Below, one piece after another: positions 122 through 55,974 of a DNA stretch of 64,000 nucleotides; positions within the stretch are counted from its first letter, which is position 1, and every line of letters starts with the position of its first letter. The position numbers and the translations under genes were made by a program. The notes beneath the pieces were generated by a model. The model had not been told where the DNA came from and made no database searches. It saw only the letters and a list, made by a program, of their open reading frames with translations. The DNA comes from Gammaproteobacteria bacterium (GTDB taxonomy: Bacteria; Pseudomonadota; Gammaproteobacteria; Pseudomonadales; Pseudohongiellaceae), in contig PCCP01000101.1 in the NCBI GenBank assembly GCA_002731775.1, forward strand, positions 1 to 64,000. Direction: 5' to 3'.

Positions 122-1957
122 CTACTCCACAGTGACTGATTTAGCGAGATTTCGCGGATGGTCGATATCCGTGCCCTTGATGATTGCCACGTGATAAGAC
201 AATAACTGCAGCGGAATGGTAAATACGATGGGATCGAGGATGTCAGGGCAATTAGGCAGATTAATTACTTCGCAACTGCTGTCGCTCTTGTACTGAATAC
301 TTTCGTCAGCAAACACGTAAAGCTTGCCACCCCTGGCGCTGACTTCCGCAAGATTTGCCTTCAGTTTTCCTAGCAAATCATTGTTGGGCGCTACGGCAAT
401 TACCGGCATATCGCTATCTACCAGGGCCAAGGGTCCATGCTTTAGTTCGCCGGCTGGATAGGCTTCGGCATGAATATAAGATATCTCCTTAAGCTTTAGC
501 GCGCCCTCTTTCGCCACCGGATACTGAATGCCTCTACCGAGGAATAAACTGTGATTCTTGTCGGAAAATTGTTTGGATACTTTCTTGATTCCCTTGCCTA
601 ATTTGAGAGCCTTTTCAACCAGAGCCGGGAGTTTTGCCAGTTCCTTTATCAGCTTCGACTCCTGTTTCGGTTGCAGTCCAGTGCGACGTGCTAGCACGAT
701 AGACAGGATTAGCAGGAGGCTAAGCTGTGTGGTAAATGCCTTGGTGGAAGCTACACCGATTTCCTGCCCCGCCATGGTCAGCAGGCAGAAGTCCGTTTCC
801 CTGACCAGGGAGCTGGTGGCTACATTACAGATTGCGAGACTTGCGATATAGGGTTTGTTCTTCGCGTATCGAAGCGCCGCCAGAGTGTCGGCGGTTTCGC
901 CTGATTGAGAAACCGCCACGAACAAAGTGCTAGGTTGCACAATTATATCTCGATATCTATAGTCGCTCGCGATGTCTACCTGGCATGAAATTTTAGCGAT
1001 GGATTCGAGCCAGTATTTCGTCACCTGCCCGGCATGGAAGCTGGTGCCGCAAGCGACTATCTGTACATTTTTTACTCTGTCGAAGATGGCCCCTGCCTTT
1101 ATGCCGAAGGCCTCCTCCAGAACGCGGGTAGAACTTATTCTGCCATCGAGGGTGTCCTGAATTACCTGTGGCTGCTCATATATTTCTTTGAGCATGAAGT
1201 GTTTGTATTCCCCCTTCTCCGCGGCCTTGGCTTTGTTCTGAATGGTCGTGACCGGCCTTCTTGCTTTTTTCCCTCCGTGCCACACTTCTATGGAGTTCAG
1301 ACTAACTTTGGCTGTATCGTCTTCTTCGAGATAAATAAATCTGTCGGTTACTTGTCCAAGTGCAAGCGGGTCTGACGCAACAAAGTTTTCCCCGATGCCG
1401 ACGCCAATCACCAGGGGGCTTCCGCTTCTTGCGACTATTATCTGGTCCGGCTGCGTGCTGTCGATAACGCATAGCCCATAGGCGCCATGTAGCTTTTTTA
1501 TAGCTCTTTGCACTGCCACCAGCAACGAGACTCTACCGCCTTTTCTGGCCTGCCGAATTAGATGGGCTATTATTTCGGTATCGGTCTCGGTCTTAAAGAC
1601 ATAGCCCTGGGCCAAAAGTTTCTCTCTGAGTATTTCATAATTCTCGATGATGCCATTGTGAACGATGAAAATTTCATTACCAGAATTATGGGGGTGGGCG
1701 TTAGCGACTGTAGGCCGGCCGTGGGTGGCCCACCGTGTATGGGCTATGCCGAGTTTGCCTCTAATATTTGATTTTCTGGCGGCGCCTAACAGCTTCTTAA
1801 CCTTGCCGACAGTCTTGACTATGTGTGACTTGTTTTTTGGGCCGCCAATCAGCGCCACGCCGGCCGAGTCATAACCTCGATATTCCAGCCTTTTAAGGCC
1901 CTCCAGCAGAATGCCGGTGACTTCTCTTTCTGCAATTGCACCTACAATGCCGCACAT
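122..1957 (-). CDS. glmS: glutamine--fructose-6-phosphate aminotransferase (isomerizing)
   Basis: GlmS converts fructose-6-phosphate and glutamine to glucosamine-6-phosphate, the first committed step toward UDP-GlcNAc for peptidoglycan and LPS. The 611-residue protein begins MCGIVGA, so Cys2 becomes the N-terminal nucleophile of the class II glutaminase domain (about 1-240). Two SIS sugar-isomerase domains follow (about 285-420 and 455-600), and the end is the conserved KSVTVE. Length is normal for the family. It lies 33 bp downstream of glmU on the same strand, which suggests cotranscription of two steps of the same pathway, as in many gammaproteobacteria. No glmS ribozyme is visible upstream. 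Confidence 0.98.
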   Translation of the reverse strand: MCGIVGAIAEREVTGILLEGLKRLEYRGYDSAGVALIGGPKNKSHIVKTVGKVKKLLGAARKSNIRGKLGIAHTRWATHGRPTVANAHPHNSGNEIFIVHNGIIENYEILREKLLAQGYVFKTETDTEIIAHLIRQARKGGRVSLLVAVQRAIKKLHGAYGLCVIDSTQPDQIIVARSGSPLVIGVGIGENFVASDPLALGQVTDRFIYLEEDDTAKVSLNSIEVWHGGKKARRPVTTIQNKAKAAEKGEYKHFMLKEIYEQPQVIQDTLDGRISSTRVLEEAFGIKAGAIFDRVKNVQIVACGTSFHAGQVTKYWLESIAKISCQVDIASDYRYRDIIVQPSTLFVAVSQSGETADTLAALRYAKNKPYIASLAICNVATSSLVRETDFCLLTMAGQEIGVASTKAFTTQLSLLLILSIVLARRTGLQPKQESKLIKELAKLPALVEKALKLGKGIKKVSKQFSDKNHSLFLGRGIQYPVAKEGALKLKEISYIHAEAYPAGELKHGPLALVDSDMPVIAVAPNNDLLGKLKANLAEVSARGGKLYVFADESIQYKSDSSCEVINLPNCPDILDPIVFTIPLQLLSYHVAIIKGTDIDHPRNLAKSVTVE

Positions 1958-52015: not shown

Positions 52016-54760
52016 TTGGCTGAATTAAAAAAACTAATCCTGGTTGATGGATCATCCTATTTGTTCCGGGCATTCCATGCTCTGCCGCCACTGGTCAGTA
52101 GTCAGGGCCAGCCCACCGGCGCCGTTAAAGGCGTGATCAATATGATCAGGAGCCTGATCAGGAATAATCCTCATAGCAACATTGCCATCGTCTTCGATGC
52201 CAAGGGCAAAACCTTTCGTAGCGATATCTACAAAGAATACAAGGCGCATCGGCCACCGATGCCGGACGAATTACGAACCCAGATCGCGCCAATTCACAAG
52301 ATCATAACAGCGATGGGATTGCCACTGTTGGTGGTCGAGAAAGTCGAGGCCGATGACGTCATCGGCACGCTCTCAAAACGGGCAACGGCGTTGGGTATAG
52401 ATACATTGATCTCAACCGGAGACAAGGACCTGGCACAACTTGTCAATGAACATGTCACGCTGATGAACACCATGACCAACGAGTTGTTGAACAGCGAAGC
52501 TGTGGAGGAAAAATTTGGTGTTGGGCCTCAGCGCATTGTGGATTACCTGGCGCTAATGGGAGATAAATCGGACAACATACCCGGCGTGCCATCGGTGGGG
52601 CCGAAGACTGCGGTAAAGTGGTTGCTGGAATACGATTCCATGGAAGGGGTTATCTCCAATGCAGAAAAAATTGGCGGCAAGGTTGGCGAGCGCCTGCGGG
52701 AAAACATCGACCTACTCAGGCTCTCATACGAGCTCGCAACCATAAAACTGGATGTAGAGCTGGATTTCGAGATCTCCGATCTCGTACAAATCGAAGCCAG
52801 TGAGCAGGATCTGATTGACCTGTTTGCGGAATTGGAATTTAAGAGCTGGGTTAGCGAACTGGAAAAAAGCGGAATAAATGCGGCTCCCCCAATTCGAGCA
52901 GATGCGGTCCCCGACGATTGCATAGAGGAGGCGATACACGCAGTACCGGATAGCGTGGAGTACAGTTGTATCACTACCCTCGATGGGCTCGAATCGCTAC
53001 TGCAAGCGATGGGCTCAGAGCGGCGCATCAGTATTAGTATCGAAACAATGGGAAGCCACTTTCTGAATGCCCGGATTCTGGGAGTAGCCCTCAGCGTCGA
53101 GCCGGGCAAGGCATTTTATATCCCGGTCAGCCACCAGGCCGAAAAGTGCCCGCAACAGCTGCAGGTCGATGAACTTTTAGCGGCGCTGCGGCCAATGCTT
53201 GAAGACGCGGCTATTGTAAAAACGGCTTATGACCTTAAACATATTAACCATGTATTACAGAACTATGGCATTGAATTTCAAGGGATCAAGTCGGATGTCC
53301 TGCTGGCCTCCTATGCCCTCAATTCCGTTGCCACCCGCCATAAGCTGCCAGACATCGCCCGTTACTATCTCAATATTTCGGTCCAGGACCTGGGTGACTT
53401 ACTCGGCAAGGGCAAGAACAAGCTTTCCCCCGATGCCGTAGAGCTGGAAAAATTTACCAGTTATGCCGCCGAAAAAGCGGACCTGGTATTACGATTATCC
53501 CGGTTGCTCGAGCGTGAGCTGGCTGCCAATGGACATCTGCACGGGCTGTACAAATACTACGAACTGCCGCTGGTGAAAGTGTTGCAGACGATGGAGCGCA
53601 ACGGCATTCGTGTTGACGAGAAATCGCTGGCGGCGCAAAGCGAGGAACTGGGAGGGCAACTGGAAAAACTACAGGGTAGTGTGTATGCGCTTGCCGGAGA
53701 GGAATTTAATGTGGGATCTCCCAAACAGCTGCAGAGTATTCTCTACGAAAAACTTGATTTACCCATACTGAAAAAAACGAAAACAGGGCAGGCTTCTACG
53801 GCTGAACCGGTGTTGCAGGAGTTAGCCGAAGACTATGAATTGCCCCGGTTGATTCTCGAATACCGATCCCTGAGCAAGTTGAAGTCGACCTATACTGACA
53901 AGTTGCCCGTGGAAATCAATGCCACCAGCGGGCGCATCCATTCTTCATTTCAACAGGCGGTGGCGGCGACCGGAAGACTGTCATCGACCGATCCCAATTT
54001 ACAAAATATTCCTATCCGTACCGCAGCGGGCCGACGGGTACGCCAGGCCTTCATCTGTGATCCGGGATACAAGCTGGTTGCCGCCGATTATTCCCAGGTT
54101 GAATTACGCATCATGGCCCATCTGTCACAGGACCAGGGCTTGCTAAGTGCATTTTCCGATGCTCTGGACGTGCATAAGGCCACGGCCGCCGAAGTCTTCA
54201 ATGTGCCATTGGATCAGGTGAGTCCCGAGCAACGGCGTAGTGCCAAGGCAATCAATTTTGGCCTGATCTACGGCATGTCTGCTTTCGGCCTCGCCAATCA
54301 ACTCAAAATTAGCAGACACAATGCCCAACATTATGTTGACCGATATTTTGAAAGGTACCCGGGTGTACGCAAGTATATGGATGAGACCCAGGCACTTGCC
54401 GATGAAAAAGGTTTCGTCGAGACGATTTTCGGCAGACGTCTGTATCTGCCCGATATCCACGCCGGCAATGCCATGATCCGGAAGGCGGCGCAACGAACCG
54501 CGATCAATGCACCGATGCAGGGTTCGGCGGCGGACATCATCAAGCGTGCGATGATCGATATCGATCATTGGTTGGCCATGGGTGACCTGGATGCGAGGAT
54601 GTTATTGCAGGTTCACGACGAATTGGTGTTCGAGGTGCGGCCGGCAGATCTGGAGTTGCTGACGGCGGGCGTAAAATTTCGAATGATTTCGGCGGCCTCG
54701 CTGGCTGTGCCGCTGGTAGTGGATATCGGCGTGGGTGACAACTGGGATCAGGCGCATTAA
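52016..54760 (+). CDS. polA: DNA polymerase I with degenerate proofreading domain
   Basis: PolA fills gaps and removes RNA primers. TTG 52016 has AAGGAAG five bases upstream and gives 914 residues. The 5'-nuclease domain (about 1-290) is intact (FDAKGKTFRSDIYKEYK, EADDVIGTL, GDKSDNIPGVPSVGPK). The polymerase domain is intact (DYSQVELRIMAHLS, RRSAKAINFGLIYG, QVHDELVFEV). In the 3'-5' exonuclease domain the E. coli catalytic residues Asp355, Asp424 and Asp501 align with Ser341, Ile410 and Lys487; only Glu357 (Glu343) and Tyr497 (Tyr483) remain. Proofreading is therefore very probably lost. Confidence 0.97.
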   Translation: MAELKKLILVDGSSYLFRAFHALPPLVSSQGQPTGAVKGVINMIRSLIRNNPHSNIAIVFDAKGKTFRSDIYKEYKAHRPPMPDELRTQIAPIHKIITAMGLPLLVVEKVEADDVIGTLSKRATALGIDTLISTGDKDLAQLVNEHVTLMNTMTNELLNSEAVEEKFGVGPQRIVDYLALMGDKSDNIPGVPSVGPKTAVKWLLEYDSMEGVISNAEKIGGKVGERLRENIDLLRLSYELATIKLDVELDFEISDLVQIEASEQDLIDLFAELEFKSWVSELEKSGINAAPPIRADAVPDDCIEEAIHAVPDSVEYSCITTLDGLESLLQAMGSERRISISIETMGSHFLNARILGVALSVEPGKAFYIPVSHQAEKCPQQLQVDELLAALRPMLEDAAIVKTAYDLKHINHVLQNYGIEFQGIKSDVLLASYALNSVATRHKLPDIARYYLNISVQDLGDLLGKGKNKLSPDAVELEKFTSYAAEKADLVLRLSRLLERELAANGHLHGLYKYYELPLVKVLQTMERNGIRVDEKSLAAQSEELGGQLEKLQGSVYALAGEEFNVGSPKQLQSILYEKLDLPILKKTKTGQASTAEPVLQELAEDYELPRLILEYRSLSKLKSTYTDKLPVEINATSGRIHSSFQQAVAATGRLSSTDPNLQNIPIRTAAGRRVRQAFICDPGYKLVAADYSQVELRIMAHLSQDQGLLSAFSDALDVHKATAAEVFNVPLDQVSPEQRRSAKAINFGLIYGMSAFGLANQLKISRHNAQHYVDRYFERYPGVRKYMDETQALADEKGFVETIFGRRLYLPDIHAGNAMIRKAAQRTAINAPMQGSAADIIKRAMIDIDHWLAMGDLDARMLLQVHDELVFEVRPADLELLTAGVKFRMISAASLAVPLVVDIGVGDNWDQAH

Positions 54761-55224: not shown

Positions 55225-55863
55225 TTAAGCTCCAGAGCCCCGGCTTGTCGTAGTGCTATTGCCGGGCGTTGTATCCGGCAGCGAAAGCCAGCTCGTGAGT
55301 TTGTCTCGCGCCACATCAATACCCGTACGCTTCATTGCAGAAAACAGCTGCACCGATATTTCGTCAAAATCTTTAAGCTGGGTTTGTACTTTTAACAAGA
55401 CGTTCTGGGAGGCGCCTCTTTTCAGTTTGTCGGCTTTGGTGAGCAGAATGTGCATGGGCAGCTTTGATTGGACCGACCAGTCGATCATCATGCGGTCAAA
55501 TTCTTTCAGTGGGTGTCGGATATCGCTTAACAGGATTAGTCCGACCAGTGCCTGCCGCTGTCGGAGGTAGCGCTCCAGTTCCCGCTGCCATTTATCCTTC
55601 ACTGCCAGCGGCACCTTGGCGTAGCCATAGCCGGGCAAATCTACCAGGTAGGCGCCGCTTTCGAGACTGAAAAAATTAATTAACTGGGTGCGACCGGGGG
55701 TCTTGCTGATGCGAGCGAGTCGTGAGTGACCGGTGATTGCATTGATGGCGCTGGATTTGCCGGCATTTGAACGGCCGGCAAAGGCAACCTCCGTGGTCGA
55801 GTCCTGGGGACAACCGTCCAGGGTTGCGGCGCTGGTGGTGAAGTGAGCCAGATTGAAGTTCAT
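55225..55863 (-). CDS. engB: ribosome biogenesis GTP-binding protein EngB (YsxC/YihA)
   Basis: EngB is an essential GTPase of 50S subunit assembly. G1 is GRSNAGKSS, then [20 protein letters not shown] (G3), TKADKL (G4) and an SAMKRTG segment (G5). I chose ATG 55863 (212 residues, MNFNLAHF) because it matches the family N-terminus; the frame is open to 55929 with further Met codons that add unrelated residues. It faces polA across the palindrome-bearing gap. Confidence 0.96.
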
Positions 55864-55974
55864 TGGCGAAATAGGTCCAGGGATCATTGCTGCGGCGTGC
55901 ATGCTATCGAAAGCCGCCGGTACACACACGCTTTTTTGAAAATAGATTCAATAGAGTCGACTGGGGAATTGGGC

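Follow-up and report, generated by a model that had tools for sequence, protein, structure and literature searches.

The polA gene of the window, by which we mean the whole 64,000-nucleotide stretch of Pseudohongiellaceae DNA analyzed here, encodes an ordinary cellular DNA polymerase I (Pol I) that in all probability couples an intact 5'-flap nuclease and polymerase to a 3'-5' exonuclease domain which is dead in catalysis, has been kept folded and goes back to one old loss. The matches to five Pfam families follow one another in the order 5_3_exonuc_N, 5_3_exonuc, DNA_polI_exo1 / DNA_pol_A_exo1 and DNA_pol_A (Table 1), with 5'-nuclease, 3'-5' exonuclease-like and family-A polymerase domains on a single chain, as in PolA1. 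The protein is not of the PolA2 (APEX) type, which the available part of PMC12926913 defines by absence of the 5'-nuclease domain and a QxxLF clamp-binding motif in the exonuclease domain: PF02739 and PF01367 both match, and no QxxLF motif was found in the 914 residues. Residue 1 is the TTG at 52016, which is preceded by an AAGGAAG-like stretch, and its TTG-GCT start recurs in loci L003, L004, L033 and L037. Downstream of polA, on the opposite strand (window 55225-55929, -), lies a gene for a protein that by eye resembles the GTP-binding protein YihA/EngB; yihA is also found downstream of polA in E. coli, in agreement with orthology of the window polA.

Table 1. Position of polA, its domains and the residues discussed in the text (window coordinates)
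Feature	Position	Strand	Evidence
polA, DNA polymerase I, 914 aa + stop, TTG start	52016..54760	+	NCBIfam NF004397 1157.5 bits, TIGR00593 932.3 bits, both above cut-off
5'-nuclease domain, residues 6-257	52031..52786	+	PF02739 and PF01367 matches
3'-5' exonuclease-like domain, residues 317-502, active site lost	52964..53521	+	PF01612 52.5 bits, PF22619 59.9 bits
Ser341 (AGT), at E. coli Asp355	53036..53038	+	Sequence alignment
Glu343 = E. coli Glu357, kept	53042..53044	+	Sequence alignment
Asp406, at E. coli Asn420	53231..53233	+	Sequence alignment; Asp in 122/127 family, 0/157 intact
Ile410 (ATT), at E. coli Asp424	53243..53245	+	Sequence alignment
His412, at E. coli Gly426	53249..53251	+	Sequence alignment; His in 127/127 family, 28/157 intact
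Tyr483 = E. coli Tyr497, kept	53462..53464	+	Sequence alignment
Lys487 (AAA), at E. coli Asp501	53474..53476	+	Sequence alignment
Polymerase domain, residues 536-911	53621..54748	+	PF00476 533.5 bits

E. coli Pol I is an orthologue over its full length, and the two enzymes differ in that the exonuclease domain of Klenow carries the catalytic aspartates and that of the window protein does not. Using E. coli K-12 polA (L381) as the reference for residue numbering in a wide alignment, the DEDDy positions D355, E357, D424, Y497 and D501 read S, E, I, Y and K in the window Pol I, which is not an active set. The first-pass annotation had arrived at the same coordinates and residue numbers for the three lost aspartates and the same retained Glu and Tyr, and its register was confirmed by phmmer, which aligned Klenow with residues 338-914 with zero gaps. 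Three further residues of the domain, E. coli L361, Y423 and F473, which touch the primer terminus once it is melted, are replaced by S347, H409 and L459. The other two activities were annotated as having intact motifs, and this holds for the catalytic residues checked, all of which are identical to E. coli: D13, D63, E113, D115, D116, D138, D140, D185 and D188 of the 5'-nuclease and D705, E710, R754, K758, F762, Y766, H881 and D882 of the polymerase (E. coli numbering). The only differences among the positions checked in these domains were E. coli E72, presumably not one of the catalytic acids, which is Asp70, and Q868, which is Ala854. Identity to E. coli Pol I is 62% in the polymerase, 57% in the 5'-nuclease and 35% in the exonuclease domain.

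An AlphaFold2 model built from a 42-sequence alignment (mean pLDDT 88.5; block means 80-96 over residues 311-500) predicts that the exonuclease domain is still folded. The top Foldseek match of the model was Klenow (1kfs, E 1.1e-59). Structural alignment with Klenow, which had been proposed as a check on the register, paired residues 314..914 of the model with 328..928 of 1kfd (VIA-align 2; Z 41.2, rmsd 2.9 over 555 residues), so that each end is displaced by 14 positions, as the sequence predicts; VIA-align 2 yields range ends only, and the individual residue pairs rest on the sequence alignment. Bst fragments gave structural scores equal to or slightly above those of Klenow, and Bst and Taq Pol I, both known to lack 3'-5' exonuclease activity, are the closest solved folds besides Klenow. 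The exonuclease domain of Taq is shortened, unlike that of the window protein, which is full length and gap-free against E. coli.

We infer from these replacements that exonuclease activity is absent. Two metal-site aspartates have given way to uncharged residues (S341 and I410), and the positive charge of K487, in place of the third, would occupy the position of a metal; L361, Y423 and F473, by which the 3' terminus of the primer is held and melted, are altered too. Such an enzyme would still remove RNA primers and fill gaps, and would extend a mispaired 3' end rather than excise it, with the exonuclease domain probably retained as a folded part in a scaffold role.

A survey of close relatives, also suggested at first pass, revealed the same positions to be lost well beyond this genome. 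Of 80 named loci, 29 lack the site, all of them >=60% identical to the window protein and including Pseudohongiella, SAR86 cluster NORP66 and uncultured Gammaproteobacteria, while the 51 that keep DEDYD are all <=55% identical to it. Within the family, 137 genomes were searched and the exonuclease region was obtained from 128 (nine had no usable region). All three positions were readable and without Asp in 124 of these 128; two genomes keep a single Asp, one at D355 and one at D424, and the other two, both truncated, show no Asp as far as they can be read. That the loss is shared by the 29 named loci and the family shows that it is not a sequencing slip. D501 is kept in no family member, its position being occupied by Lys in 57 and Arg in 39 of 127 (96/127 together), whereas Glu persists at the E343 position in 105/127 and Tyr at the Y483 position in 75/127; E357 is likewise gone in some genera. 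In one relative of the same genus group (L202, G033:C6:33303-36091), whose genome is 99% complete, the exonuclease domain of polA is open and the polymerase part contains frameshifts and stops, so that either the gene has decayed or its assembly is faulty.

Outside the family, we aligned 185 Pol I proteins from samples of the order, the class and the named loci, among which 157 were DEDYD, 22 changed and 6 gapped; 14 of the named intact loci may duplicate genomes in the G-labelled set. At the level of the order, the site was changed in 5/5 genomes of family f6, 2/2 of the neighbouring family f7, 1/5 of f36 and 4/8 of f40 and unchanged in the remaining families with a readable site, each represented by few genomes; in family f12 three of the five positions could be read (DED--), and in f3 and f45 none. 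In the class sample 68/81 were DEDYD. None of these fractions is an unbiased rate, since the class sample was deliberately weighted to low-scoring Pol I (60/80 fetched stretches) and the order sample both to low scorers and to a single genome from each family.

In a tree of 292 tips built from the 5'-nuclease and polymerase domains, with the exonuclease domain excluded, the family groups with f7 in a single clade (support 0.997, 114/292 tips) whose members are all changed, and f6 is placed among intact enzymes. All-changed clades number 15 in total, and the distribution of the loss requires 15 Fitch changes compared with at least 88 in 50 label shuffles. Some of the single-tip losses rest on one substitution (DECYD, DEDCD, DEVYS) in draft genomes. 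The clade formed by the family and f7 and the small number of Fitch changes indicate that the loss in the window was inherited and that similar losses recur. The loss seen in the window dates to a single event, shared with f7, at the base of the family or earlier. Several exonuclease residues are also lost in each of three single gammaproteobacterial Pol I (L267 from G171, L341 from G491 and L287 from G211), apparently independently of the window's family. The first-pass annotation had inferred an organism without Pol I proofreading. Judging by the sequence, its conservation and the precedent of H. pylori, that loss of proofreading is very likely; it is not peculiar to the organism, being an old loss of the family and f7.

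We compared the evolution of the dead domain with that of its intact counterparts. Among pairs with a polymerase identity of 0.75-0.80, mean exonuclease identity was 0.435 in the family (1749 pairs); for two sets of intact enzymes the means were higher, at 0.707 (127 pairs) and 0.676 (18 pairs). Median dN/dS over 109 family pairs was 0.162 for the exonuclease domain, 0.062 for the polymerase and 0.138 for the 5'-nuclease, and the first of these values shows that the domain is not neutral. The dead exonuclease domain therefore evolves faster than intact ones and is relaxed, yet constrained. A dN/dS control in intact enzymes (584 pairs, same dS range) was dropped because its medians (exonuclease 0.377, polymerase 0.308) were implausible, as in saturated distant pairs, and was replaced by the comparison at matched polymerase identity.

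Some exonuclease positions do not vary within the family, among them G356, Y368, K408 (127/127) and D427, which suggests that the domain has some duty beyond filling space. Around the former D424, K408 joins His412 and Asp406 (Table 1) in a motif, [HYF]DxKxxxH (residues 405-412), that is a conserved signature of the dead site and is mildly new; it could reflect either a new function or packing of the empty cleft. A salt bridge between K487 and D406 was considered, but D406 is near-constant and position 487 variable (K, R, N, Q, C). A new job for this helix, for instance in binding DNA or another protein, would add to the loss of proofreading rather than replace it, and we regard it as rather unlikely. 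It would account for the conservation of H412 and D406 within a fast-evolving domain and for the occurrence of Asp406, found in none of the intact enzymes, in 8 of the 23 changed enzymes outside the family (from f6, f40, G496 and G503), which fall in four other lineages on the tree. The conserved columns may, however, merely stabilise the empty cleft; position 406 is not Asp in the other 15 of those 23, and H412 occurs in intact enzymes as well as in 11/23 of the changed ones outside the family. There is accordingly only a small chance that the domain gained a function on this helix after the loss, with the change of N420 to Asp marking re-used dead domains and reached independently in several gammaproteobacterial lineages.

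Three observations run counter to this reading of a dead domain: E343 and Y483 are kept more often in the family than free decay would leave them, the new acidic D406 is a single turn of the helix away from the lost D424, and other positions of the domain, named above, are invariant. Asp406 and Asp489 had been named at first pass as acids that might rescue the metal sites, and a rebuilt site, in which E343 and D406, perhaps with D489, bind metal and support weak exonuclease activity, would fit the near-constancy of Asp406 and the frequent retention of Glu343. We nevertheless consider it highly improbable. D489 is not new, corresponding as it does to E. coli D503, which is Asp in 140/157 intact enzymes, and D406 is retained in relatives that lack E343 (for example, L156, L165 and L167), so the pair does not behave as one site; a Lys or Arg stands at 487 in most of the family, and the positions of L361, Y423 and F473 are unconserved. 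As for misassembly, an error of register or another intact Pol I encoded at a different site, a missed gene is conceivable in a draft of 126 contigs and 90.31% completeness, but the prospect is negligible given that the PF00476 search of the assembly returned a single family-A polymerase match (52016-54757, +) and no second Pol I, that relatives from separate assemblies share the loss, and that the register is ungapped in sequence and its ends match in the model.

A Pol I with a folded, catalytically dead exonuclease domain, the reading we prefer, has a close parallel in H. pylori. According to the available part of PMC3121766, H. pylori Pol I (HP1470) has none of the aspartates equivalent to Asp355, Asp424 and Asp501 of E. 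coli and keeps the 5' nuclease, with the overall exonuclease domain thought to be preserved; the purified enzyme leaves 3' mismatches in place under conditions in which Klenow removes them, extends from mismatches and bypasses lesions, and its intrinsic fidelity is fairly high (0.15% lacZ mutants compared with 0.57% quoted for Klenow). The same three aspartates are gone from the window Pol I, and its exonuclease fold is likewise kept in the predicted model. H. pylori differs in belonging to another bacterial class and in having a Pol I that has been assayed; moreover, H. pylori is described in that part of the source as having no translesion polymerases, in contrast to three matches to the Y-family model PF00817 in the window's genome.

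More broadly, the accessible text of PMC12926913 reports substituted DEDDy motifs in about half of bacterial PolA1, largely in a phylum-specific manner and most commonly in Firmicutes, Tenericutes and Actinobacteria, and its authors suggest that Pol I proofreading may often be dispensable. Like the window Pol I, these enzymes retain all the domains of Pol I, the DnaQ-like one in an inactivated form; those named in that text come from other phyla, whereas ours is the case of a gammaproteobacterial family, which may already have been counted there. The window Pol I is thus a further case of a known proofreading-less type, and its family-wide spread in Gammaproteobacteria is of modest interest; a literature search of partial coverage retrieved nothing joining Pseudohongiella and polymerase I, and nothing that describes such a loss in Gammaproteobacteria in its title or the opening of its abstract. 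Following E. coli, Pol I proofreading is usually taken as part of gammaproteobacterial replication and repair, and here a whole family very likely does without it. Together with the intact neighbours, the tree that locates the loss offers a natural comparison that bears on the benefit of Pol I proofreading to the cell and on how a domain of an essential enzyme evolves once it is dead. If the domain were annotated only by the name of its family (DNA_pol_A_exo1, 3'-5' exonuclease), proofreading would be falsely predicted.

In order to place the loss in the context of replication fidelity, we searched the window's genome for other exonucleases and polymerases. PF00929 gave four matches, three of which were scanned and correspond to Pol III epsilon, oligoribonuclease and RNase T, while the fourth resembles exonuclease I by eye; MutL is also encoded. 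With Pol III epsilon and MutL present, replicative proofreading is probably intact, and any effect on mutation would be expected in primer gaps and repair patches. The effect on repair fidelity that was expected at first pass is a weaker part of that reading, given these two proteins and the fairly high intrinsic fidelity of the exonuclease-less H. pylori enzyme. Pol II was considered as a stand-in proofreader and rejected, as its presence does not track the loss: PF00136 has no match in the window's genome and is found in 51/137 family genomes, in only one of eight genera, the window's own genus group (within G001-G083). Among the relatives of the window's genome, the 92%-identical G071 does have Pol II. 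Outside the window, the same genome contains a stand-alone 5'-nuclease (G000:C78:5815-6612; open frame of 322 aa), 34% identical to the N-terminal domain of Pol I and of a type present in many relatives.
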